Source: a virus
Length of the DNA: 64,000 nucleotides
IMG/VR virus record: IMGVR_UViG_3300031772_000013
Location: 1-64,000 of that record
Direction: 5' to 3' (one strand)
In this document: piece by piece, positions 47,762 through 50,944 of the stretch
Numbering within the stretch: the stretch's first letter is position 1
How the letters are laid out: each line of letters starts with the position of its first letter
Program-made: the position numbers and the translations under genes
Notes under the pieces: generated by a model
Seen by the model: the letters and a program-made list of their open reading frames with translations, nothing else
Told to the model about the DNA's origin: nothing
Database searches by the model: none

Positions 47762-47968
47762 ATGGGCATCCGCGAAGAACAAACCGGCAACGTAGTCTCC
47801 GGCCCCGCCGTCATCGGCGAGCCGTGGTGGCTCATCAGCAAGCCAGACGGGACGGCGTTCTGTTGCCACCGAGCCCCGAGCTGGTTCAAGGCGCGCGACA
47901 TCGGACGAGGACTGACTGAGCAAGAGGTTTCGGCGGAGTTGATCTTTCAGGGAGTGACAAAACAATGA
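47762..47968 (+). CDS. Hypothetical small protein
   Basis: This is 68 residues from ATG 47762 with AGGGA upstream. WWLISKPDGTAFCCHRAPSW and LTEQEVSAELIFQGV are visible. It overlaps the thyX gene (ATGA). No family was recognised. Confidence 0.6.
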   Translation: MGIREEQTGNVVSGPAVIGEPWWLISKPDGTAFCCHRAPSWFKARDIGRGLTEQEVSAELIFQGVTKQ

Positions 47969-48948
47969 GCTACGACGCAAAGATTCTCGCAGATTCGATC
48001 TCGCCAGCGGGGCACCGAGTGACCACGATGCAGGTCACGTTCCCCAGGCTGATTTTGGCGGAGTTCAATACGCACCGCGTACTCTCGCGCAACAGCGCGT
48101 CGAGTCGCGCGATCCCGGTCGAACGGCGCATCGAGCAGATCAGGGAGAACCCGTTCGTGCCGGAGGCGTTCGGCAAGAACCAGAGAGGGATGCAGGCGAG
48201 CGAGGCGCTCGACGATGAGGCGAATCTGCTCGCTAGGACTCACTGGCTCAATGCTGCGGAGGACGCGCGTGAGCACGCCGGGTACCTAGCAGCCATCGGC
48301 GTGCACAAGCAGCACGCGAACCGCGTCATCGAAACCTACGCCTGGCACACCGTCATCGTGACCTCGACTGAGTGGGCCAACTGGGACGCGCTCCGCGTCA
48401 GCAAGATGGCGCAGCCGGAGATGTTCAAGATCGCCAGCATGATGCGCGAGGTGCGGCAGGCGAGCAAGCCCCTCGCGGTGAACTACGGTGACTGGCACCT
48501 GCCGCTCGTGCGGGGAGTGCTCGGGGCCGTCAACGCAGAGGAGCAGGCTTTGCGTGCCAGCACCGTCACGGCGTTGATGGGATACAGCCCCAGATCGGGC
48601 GTAAACGCAGAGGAGCAGGCTTTGCGTGCCAGCGGCTTCGATCCAGTCAAGGTCTGTGTCGGCCGCTGCGCGTCGGTGAGCTACGAGCGCCACGACGCGA
48701 CGACGCCCGAGAAGGCGAGTGCGATCTGCGACAAGCTCCGCGCCGACGGGCACATGTCACCGTTTGAGCACGCGCTCCGGCCCATGACGAACCACGAACT
48801 GAAGCTCTTCATGCAGGAAGACCTTCAGTGGAGCGGGCGCGAATGGGTGCTCGGGTCACAGCAGATTCGACACTTTCTCGGCAACGTCGAGGGGTGGGTC
48901 CAATTTCGGAAGCTCCTGCCCGGCGAAGCCGTGTACTGCGGGGAATGA
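47965..48948 (+). CDS. thyX: Flavin-dependent thymidylate synthase
   Basis: This 327-residue enzyme makes dTMP from dUMP using FAD and folate. FNTHRVLSRNSASSRAIP (about 33-50) is the ThyX signature (H-R-x2-S-R-N-x2-S-x-R), and HKQHANRVIETYAWH and CVGRCASVSYERH are further conserved blocks. An extra 24-residue segment, flanked by a repeated NAEEQALRAS, interrupts the region before CVGRCASVSY. It probably supports phage DNA synthesis. Confidence 0.85.
   Translation: MSYDAKILADSISPAGHRVTTMQVTFPRLILAEFNTHRVLSRNSASSRAIPVERRIEQIRENPFVPEAFGKNQRGMQASEALDDEANLLARTHWLNAAEDAREHAGYLAAIGVHKQHANRVIETYAWHTVIVTSTEWANWDALRVSKMAQPEMFKIASMMREVRQASKPLAVNYGDWHLPLVRGVLGAVNAEEQALRASTVTALMGYSPRSGVNAEEQALRASGFDPVKVCVGRCASVSYERHDATTPEKASAICDKLRADGHMSPFEHALRPMTNHELKLFMQEDLQWSGREWVLGSQQIRHFLGNVEGWVQFRKLLPGEAVYCGE
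48532..48633 (+). repeat. In-frame direct repeat within thyX
   Basis: Identical 30-base copies at 48532-48561 and 48604-48633 encode NAEEQALRAS twice, 72 bases (24 codons) apart. The spacer encodes TVTALMGYSPRSGV. It is an in-frame insertion or partial duplication. Confidence 0.9.
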
Positions 48949-49424: not shown

Positions 49425-49658
49425 ATGGAACCCAAAGAAGTGACTGAGGCCAGAGCCGTCATCCGAGACTGGGAAGAGCTCGGCGTCTGCCCGAGCGTGC
49501 AACAAACAAGGGTGTCGTGCACCTGGACCTGCTTTACGTGCGGGCGTTCGCGCCCTGCGACCGTCGGCTCGACCAGCGACAGCGACTACGGGCAGAGCCG
49601 TGTGATGGGGGATGCGCCGAACGGCGTGCAATGCGCGATGAAGAAAGAGAAAACGTGA
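49425..49658 (+). CDS. Small zinc-finger protein
   Basis: This is 77 residues. VSCTWTCFTCGRS contains closely spaced Cys residues, and CAMKKEKT ends the protein. It starts immediately after the cupin gene stop and overlaps the methylase start (GTGA). It may bind zinc. Confidence 0.6.
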   Translation: MEPKEVTEARAVIRDWEELGVCPSVQQTRVSCTWTCFTCGRSRPATVGSTSDSDYGQSRVMGDAPNGVQCAMKKEKT

Positions 49659-50944
49659 GTGAAGCCTTCTACAACGAGAACGAACCGTACGCGGCCCAGT
49701 GGCTCGAAAACCTTGAGCGCGAAGGGCACATCGCCCCGGGCAAAGTCGACGCGCGGAGCATCGTCGACATCAAGCCGAAAGACCTCGAAGGCTTCCAGCA
49801 AGCGCACTTCTTCGCCGGCCTTGGCGGCTGGTCCCACGCGCTCCGGCTCGCGGGGTGGCCAGACGACGAAGAAGTCTGGACAGGGTCGTGCCCTTGTCAA
49901 CCCTTCTCGACGGCAGGGCGTCGCAAAGGCTTTGCCGACGAGCGCCATCTCTGGCCGGAGTGGTTCCGACTCATCCGCAAGTGCCGTCCTAGGGTTGTCT
50001 TTGGCGAGCAAATTGCGGGAACTGACGGCCTCCGGTGGCTCGACCTTGTTTTCGCTGACATGGAAGGTGCGGGTTACGCCTGCTGGGCGACGGATACCTG
50101 CGCTGCGGGGGTCGGGGCGCCGCATCTCCGACAGCGGTTGTACTTCGTGGCCTACGCCAGTAGCGAGCGACTCCGGCGGCCCGACGTGCCACAACCGCAC
50201 CTGGAGCAAGACTCAATGCAATCTGCACAACGTGGTCCTGGGCCGGGGCAAACAGATGGACGGGCGCGTGTTCGAGACGTCGTCAGCGGCTCTTTCGGGC
50301 TGGCCGACTCCGGTGAGCAACGACGCAACCGGATCGACTCACCAGTACAGCCGGGGGGATCACACCAAGCCGATCCTGAAGCTGACGGGCACAGCACGGC
50401 TCGCGAGTTGGGCAACGCCCGCAGCCAAGGAGGCGGGGGGCACGCCGGAGCAGTTCCTCGAACGGAAGCGAAAAGCAAACGCGAAGGGCGCATCGCTCGG
50501 GGTGTCGCTCACGAGCCTGAGTCTGCAAGCGACGCTCTCGAGTTGGGCGACGCCAGCGGCGCGCGATCACCGGTCGGACCGGGGCCAGAAGAGCGATTCG
50601 GAGCAGTACGGTACGAAGGGCCGTCCCCTGCCGAGACAGGCGCTACTCGTGGATTCTGGCGCGACGCCGAGTGGTGGGTCTGCCGCGACGGGAAAGCTCG
50701 CCCAACTGAATCCTCGGCACAGTGGATGGCTGATGGGTTATCCGCGCGCCTGGGACGAGTGCGCTCCGATGCCGACGCTGCGTTCGCGCAAAGGCTAGCC
50801 GACGCGGGATCGTTTCCACTTGCTCTCGACGCGCCTGCCCGGGTCGGCCGCCTCAAAGCCTACGGTAACGCCATCGTCCCGCAGCAAGCCGCCCTCTTCA
50901 TCCGGGCGGTAATGCCGCTGATCGGGCTGAAACCTGCGGGCTAG
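49655..50944 (+). CDS. dcm: DNA cytosine-5 methyltransferase
   Basis: This is 429 residues from GTG 49655. AHFFAGLGGWSHALRLAG is the SAM motif, GSCPCQPFS (about 77-85) carries the catalytic Cys, and VVFGEQIA replaces the usual ENV. HLRQRLYFVA and the C-terminal YGNAIVPQQAALF complete the enzyme. The variable region (about 170-390) is rich in ADS/GNA/GDA units. The same DNA is open and conserved-looking in the +1 frame (next entry). Confidence 0.82.
   Translation: MSEAFYNENEPYAAQWLENLEREGHIAPGKVDARSIVDIKPKDLEGFQQAHFFAGLGGWSHALRLAGWPDDEEVWTGSCPCQPFSTAGRRKGFADERHLWPEWFRLIRKCRPRVVFGEQIAGTDGLRWLDLVFADMEGAGYACWATDTCAAGVGAPHLRQRLYFVAYASSERLRRPDVPQPHLEQDSMQSAQRGPGPGQTDGRARVRDVVSGSFGLADSGEQRRNRIDSPVQPGGSHQADPEADGHSTARELGNARSQGGGGHAGAVPRTEAKSKREGRIARGVAHEPESASDALELGDASGARSPVGPGPEERFGAVRYEGPSPAETGATRGFWRDAEWWVCRDGKARPTESSAQWMADGLSARLGRVRSDADAAFAQRLADAGSFPLALDAPARVGRLKAYGNAIVPQQAALFIRAVMPLIGLKPAG
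49659..50798 (+). CDS. Overlapping +1-frame ORF within the cytosine methylase gene
   Basis: This is an open frame of 379 codons. Its part from about 50035 reads STLFSLTWKVRVTPAGRRIP, then SWPTPVASD, GWPTPVSND, SWATPAAKE and SWATPAARD, and ends LNPRHSGWLMGYPRAWDEC. This WPTP...LNP...WLMGYP pattern is familiar from C-terminal parts of phage cytosine methylase entries. It may be an alternative C-terminus reached by frameshifting, or an overlapping gene. The first 120 codons look like a shadow. Confidence 0.4.
   Translation: MKPSTTRTNRTRPSGSKTLSAKGTSPRAKSTRGASSTSSRKTSKASSKRTSSPALAAGPTRSGSRGGQTTKKSGQGRALVNPSRRQGVAKALPTSAISGRSGSDSSASAVLGLSLASKLRELTASGGSTLFSLTWKVRVTPAGRRIPALRGSGRRISDSGCTSWPTPVASDSGGPTCHNRTWSKTQCNLHNVVLGRGKQMDGRVFETSSAALSGWPTPVSNDATGSTHQYSRGDHTKPILKLTGTARLASWATPAAKEAGGTPEQFLERKRKANAKGASLGVSLTSLSLQATLSSWATPAARDHRSDRGQKSDSEQYGTKGRPLPRQALLVDSGATPSGGSAATGKLAQLNPRHSGWLMGYPRAWDECAPMPTLRSRKG

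Follow-up and report, generated by a model that had tools for sequence, protein, structure and literature searches.

C5-cytosine methyltransferases made of two polypeptides are represented by M.EcoHK31I and by M.EaeI. The small subunit of M.EcoHK31I is reportedly encoded inside the gene for the large subunit, in another frame, and the EcoHK31I report, said to be that of Lee et al. in 1995, is the precedent for a nested arrangement. The C5 methyltransferases of the Bacillus phages SPR, phi3T and H2 are multispecific enzymes that carry several recognition modules on a single chain, encoded in a single frame. According to a published summary (PMC3404938), M.EcoHK31I (YGGCCR) has motifs I-VIII and X on its large subunit and motif IX on its small subunit, and the predicted TRD is placed in the large subunit. 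An inserted out-of-frame HNH homing endonuclease has been described in a phage methylase gene of ShiLan (PMC11855218).

The locus studied here lies in a window of 64,000 nucleotides (the whole stretch of DNA analysed), which belongs to a virus record of 75,451 bases; all its features are on the plus strand. Frame 0 contains a gene for a C5-cytosine methyltransferase of 429 amino acids with motifs I-VIII and X (alpha, 49655..50944), for which GTG 49655 or an alternative in-frame ATG at 49631 are possible starts within a mechanical ORF of 49517-50944. Nested in alpha is a +1-frame ORF (beta, 49659..50798), of which the start is uncertain (GTG 49659 or a downstream TTG) and the conserved core, delimited by +1 conservation and alignment A3, covers 279 codons (49959..50795). 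A sequence-only reading of this gene had proposed that it reads as protein in two frames, and its coordinates for the +1 frame agree with this open ORF inside an open frame-0 ORF. As that reading had noticed, GLADS in frame 0 and WPTP in the +1 frame are encoded by common bases (around 50299-50312), and both endings that it described occur, YGNAIVP in frame 0 and LNP...WLMGYP in +1. Its impression that both translations belong to methylase families was borne out by profile matches of alpha to phrog_363 (DNA methyltransferase, E=1.2e-78) and Pfam PF00145 (E=9e-18), and of beta to phrog_1008 (DNA methyltransferase, E=1.2e-24).

Judged from sequence, this stretch of DNA very probably encodes a nested two-subunit C5-cytosine methyltransferase, with alpha as the catalytic and beta as the recognition subunit, working together. 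Frame 0 would provide SAM binding and catalysis (motifs I-VIII) as well as motif X, while the +1 frame would provide an N-terminal helix/hairpin segment, four interchangeable W-P-T-P cassettes that would serve for target recognition, and motif IX. Translation of beta would begin at a start of its own within the alpha message, and beta would associate with alpha to form one active enzyme, whose likely role would be to protect phage DNA from host restriction. The segment of alpha between motifs VIII and X would be a mere open linker, imposed by the codons of beta.

The pair would thus work like M.EcoHK31I, beside whose published description only it was set: alpha carries motifs I-VIII and X, beta carries motif IX, and beta is nested in another frame. 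Unlike in M.EcoHK31I, where the TRD is predicted in the large subunit, the recognition region is conserved only in beta, and beta is a shuffled cassette array, found in phage genes from several host phyla. As the literature places the TRD differently and the comparison is by description only, we do not claim membership of the M.EcoHK31I type. With M.AquI and the split actinophage methylases, the locus shares a C5 methyltransferase divided within its variable region over two coding sequences; in M.AquI-type splits, however, motifs IX and X are both on the second polypeptide, whereas here alpha keeps motif X, in frame 0, and beta lies nested inside the alpha gene. Like the SPR, phi3T and H2 enzymes, it would combine several modules in one enzyme, the specificity of the cassettes being putative, but those enzymes are single-chain and single-frame where this one uses two frames. 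ShiLan likewise has a hidden frame in a phage methylase gene, which encodes a homing endonuclease rather than, as here, a methylase subunit.

The catalytic domain of alpha matches M.HhaI in both sequence and fold. Motifs I, IV, VI, VIII and X were all found, with GEQ in place of ENV at motif VI, and HFFAG, PCQPF, GEQ, RQRLYFVA and GNAIVP are invariant or near-invariant in the family alignments. The motif I region, HFFAGLGGW, is located at 49805..49831 (HFFAG invariant in A1 and A4), and the PCQ of motif IV at 49892..49900, with the catalytic cysteine codon at 49895-49897; it is invariant in the same alignments and aligns to the PCQ of M.HhaI. Motif X, GNAIVP, follows at 50864..50881, with G404 and N405 invariant in A4. 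AlphaFold modelled residues 1-170 mostly with high confidence and the C-terminal motif X helix at a pLDDT of about 90, whereas residues of about 181-330 mostly scored 32-50. The segment between motifs VIII and X, which consists of GLADS/LGNAR/LGDAS units (50195..50644), is thus predicted to be a disordered linker, and it is an unconserved passenger of the beta frame. TRD and motif IX do not share a chain with the catalytic motifs, the motif-IX equivalent lying in the +1 frame.

This equivalent, LNPxHSRWLMGxPxxW, forms the C-terminal end of beta and has no counterpart in alpha. In the window it reads LNPRHSGWLMGYPRAW (50706..50753), and it is near-invariant in 62 beta sequences. We take it to resemble motif IX of M.HhaI. 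By hhalign (E=9.7e-9), it is homologous to the segment that precedes motif X in three monomeric and two split actinophage methylases, RitaG gp71 and mcgavigan among the monomeric ones; when the whole of beta was compared with the actinophage C-termini only the cassettes aligned, and the motif IX comparison was made on short segments. We read LNPxHSRWLMGxPxxW as the probable motif IX. Around the motif, the family consensus is RDGKWRPVEPGTFPLAHG in alpha and GGQLNPAHSRWLMG in beta, and both frames are about 67% identical. For beta as a whole, AlphaFold gave no confident fold (pLDDT 60, pTM 0.28), a fold search with this low-confidence model gave no match in the PDB, and a profile search against PDB and Pfam gave nothing meaningful. 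The TRD is accordingly assigned from its position, from motif IX, and from in-frame relatives. Four loci that at first appeared to encode stand-alone beta proteins (L262, L266, L281 and L282) all overlap an alpha frame.

Four cassettes were delimited in the beta of the window. Cassette 1 (WPTPVASDSGGPT..., 50148..50300) is a singleton in the sample, while cassette 2 (WPTPVSNDATGSTHQYS...LKLTGTARLAS, 50301..50408) falls in a cluster of 22 loci, cassette 3 (WATPAAKEAGGTPEQFLERKRK...LQATLSS, 50409..50543) in one of 23 loci, and cassette 4 with the C-terminal linker (WATPAARDHRSDRGQ..., 50544..50705) in one of 5 loci. In total, 564 cassettes from 159 distinct loci formed 129 clusters by average linkage, which was used instead of single linkage, where most cassettes merged into one cluster. 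Cassettes are shuffled among these loci: 155 distinct combinations were found among the 159, and for the 31 clusters that have 5 or more members, the mean number of ordinal positions occupied was 3.5. Duplicates within a protein are rare: the expectation is 16.3 (sd 3.6, and never below 7 in 1000 shuffles), and a single one was seen. This pattern fits distinct, non-redundant functions, which would most simply be distinct DNA targets for each cassette. A fuller version of this reading, to which we give somewhat less than even chances, is that each W-P-T-P cassette reads its own DNA target and that phages shuffle them by recombination, gaining several anti-restriction specificities at once; the whole array would be concealed in the gene for the catalytic subunit, in its +1 frame, with the alpha linker passive and open only to reach motif X.

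The two frames are constrained in different parts of the gene. Differences between homologs fall at the third codon position of alpha in 55% of cases in columns 0-35 of the alpha alignment and 54% in columns 35-100, reflecting constraint on alpha, and in 42% in columns 100-160, where both frames are constrained; in the TRD region they accumulate at alpha position 1, corresponding to position 3 of beta (41%). Residue conservation in the +1 frame exceeds the null from column 100 or so and peaks at TWKVRVTPSG (observed 3.37, null 0.63), with whole-region z-scores of 46 for +1 vs 22 for +2. TRD-region homology was detected in 2664/3741 pairs for beta, 128/3741 for alpha, and 56/3741 for +2. Between motifs VIII and X, beta alone is conserved. 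In the repeat region, the frame that the sequence-only reading had taken as the annotated one is therefore the passenger, and the +1 frame the constrained one.

Many beta frames have a Shine-Dalgarno sequence and start of their own. In the +1 frame, stops abound ahead of column 39 and almost disappear beyond column 48. Within ERSIEDV, 55% of loci have an ATG at the Asp-Val step vs 27% expected under the null. In 30/98 genes (31%), the Arg codon preceding this ATG is the rare AGG, which accounts for 4.6% of Arg codons elsewhere (p=7e-15 with relatedness not removed; p=2e-6 and 0.04 after dereplication at 80% and 70%, respectively). This codon creates an AAGGAG about 8 bases ahead of the ATG, as in epsilon15. 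The window lacks an ATG where beta usually starts; its candidates are GTG 49659 or a TTG, and its upstream Shine-Dalgarno-like sequence is weak. At 49655-49661, it reads GTGaGTG, two possible starts four bases apart, one for each frame; the same arrangement is present in a relative (L011), with a GAGGAG well placed for the second GTG.

These data bear on the possibility of programmed ribosomal frameshifting, in which a +1 shift near motif VIII would fuse alpha (I-VIII) to beta (TRD-IX) and unshifted alpha would be an alternative C-terminus. Such a shift would yield one chain with TRD and motif IX after motif VIII, as in the monomeric actinophage relatives. We consider it improbable, however. 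Beta is under its own constraint at alpha columns 100-160, upstream of and across motifs VI-VIII, and would therefore be translated there as a separate protein. Since its conservation begins upstream of these motifs, a shift before column 100 would cost the product its catalytic motifs, and motif X, being encoded in frame 0, would be missing from the shifted product all the same; independent start signals are also present in many loci. For the same reasons, the earlier suggestion that one enzyme has two alternative C-termini is not supported for beta, with its own start signals and its conservation upstream of motifs VI-VIII. Nor is the middle of alpha a competing specificity domain; it is an unconserved, predicted-disordered linker.

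To quantify selection on the two frames, 230 loci with an identifiable alpha were collected, of which 87 (alpha N-terminal identity <80%) were tested. These representatives are still related, and they stem from pattern-seeded searches rather than a census. Synonymous codons of frame 0 were permuted from motif I to the LNP motif, keeping the alpha protein and codon usage; this null ignores codon-pair and context effects, and stops in +2, as well as in the third frame of the reverse test, occurred as expected under it (974 vs 902 expected, not depleted, and 630 vs 613, respectively). In the +1 frame, 3 stops were observed vs 217 expected, all 3 in the motif I-VIII part and 0 in the TRD region. 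Most of the 87 loci had been found with a +1 query; among 23 representatives found with a frame-0 query only, which were not selected for +1, 1 stop was seen vs 65.8 expected. The long dual coding suspected from the sequence is thus genuine, and the +1 frame is uninterrupted where stops in most homologs would have spoken against it.

When the synonymous codons of beta were permuted instead, alpha-frame stops numbered 0 vs 309 expected in the 87 loci, a count that is partly conditioned, with loci having been found with alpha open through the region and the broken alpha of L149 outside it. Subject to this condition, selection keeps both frames open. An alternative is that beta alone matters in the TRD region, with alpha a relic ending after motif VIII and the nested state transitional. 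This would agree with the lack of conservation of alpha in that region, with L149, where alpha has a single in-frame stop in the linker after motif VIII and beta is intact (decay or sequencing error), and with the split forms ChampagnePapi gp82/81 and Andrew gp43/44. It is very improbable, since alpha is open in all 87 loci and motif X, beyond the linker, shows strong frame-0 conservation, so that alpha must read through to it. That alpha alone is real, the +1 openness and similarity being by-products of conserved alpha codons in GC-rich DNA, would suit the window by itself, where an open +1 frame is nothing unusual (P=0.27 by synonymous permutation of frame 0), but it is scarcely credible and is refuted for the family by the depletion of +1 stops, the TRD homology also being in beta and not in alpha. 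Even in the window, the openness of alpha given beta is surprising (P=0.005). As a separate observation, L089 has a stop in the catalytic motif of alpha (PC*PFS) with beta intact, again decay or sequencing error.

Relatives of the nested pair come in several arrangements. Nested pairs have already been annotated in phage K1G (ORF31 with ORF30, "Mte8-like"), Paenibacillus phage Bloom, and Xanthomonas phage PhiXhv-5, and genomes of Verrucomicrobia, Desulfovibrio, and alphaproteobacteria likewise have divergent alphas with a +1 beta. In the split pairs, the second gene is in +1, with a short overlap in ChampagnePapi gp82/81 and a 239-base overlap in Arthrobacter phage Andrew gp43/44; both second proteins carry P-T-P cassettes, motif IX, and motif X. 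In the monomeric RitaG gp71 and mcgavigan, a single frame continues after motif VIII with P-T-P cassettes, a LNPxHSRWLMGxPxxW-type motif, and GNG-V (motif X). Both the annotated nested CDSs and the presence of a beta-type segment in the catalytic frame of relatives show that the database matches are not due to frame errors, the second objection that the sequence-only reading had raised against itself.

In two relatives, Gordonia phage Gudmit (L276:1785-3170) and mcgavigan (L307:757-2073), a single gene has P-T-P cassettes in both its alpha and its +1 frame, as though cassettes had changed frame. Beta of a Desulfovibrio MAG (L260:962-2584; G003:C149) contains an HNH-endonuclease-like insert (CxxC pairs, SLDRI..NGYTVDN), which is open in alpha too and is comparable to the out-of-frame HNH of ShiLan (PMC11855218).

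What is new here is the breadth of the arrangement across phages of Proteobacteria, Firmicutes, and Actinobacteria, the assignment of the recognition region to beta, and the shuffling of cassettes; the arrangement is far more widespread and modular than in the reported description of the 1995 precedent. It provides long, strongly supported overlapping genes in double-stranded DNA phages, with a core overlap of 279 codons at this locus, that are retained in nearly all family members tested and in which constraint is visibly split between the frames. Many annotations probably name just one of these two proteins, and one expressed alone may seem inactive or orphan. The array of cassettes points to a natural supply of recombinable C5-methylation specificities, and the existence of monomeric, split, and nested relatives makes the evolution of overprinting directly testable.

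A candidate relative of EaeI, L308 (LR134256.1, plasmid 3 of Klebsiella aerogenes), was set aside as a phage-like locus with no restriction gene listed; its methylase region is annotated only in pieces, as small uncharacterized ORFs. Upstream in the window, a gene that we take to be ThyX-like (47965-48948) contains a 37-nt direct repeat at 48525-48633 (95% identical, spacing 72). NAEEQALRAS occurs there twice in frame, in what looks like a recent 24-codon duplication.
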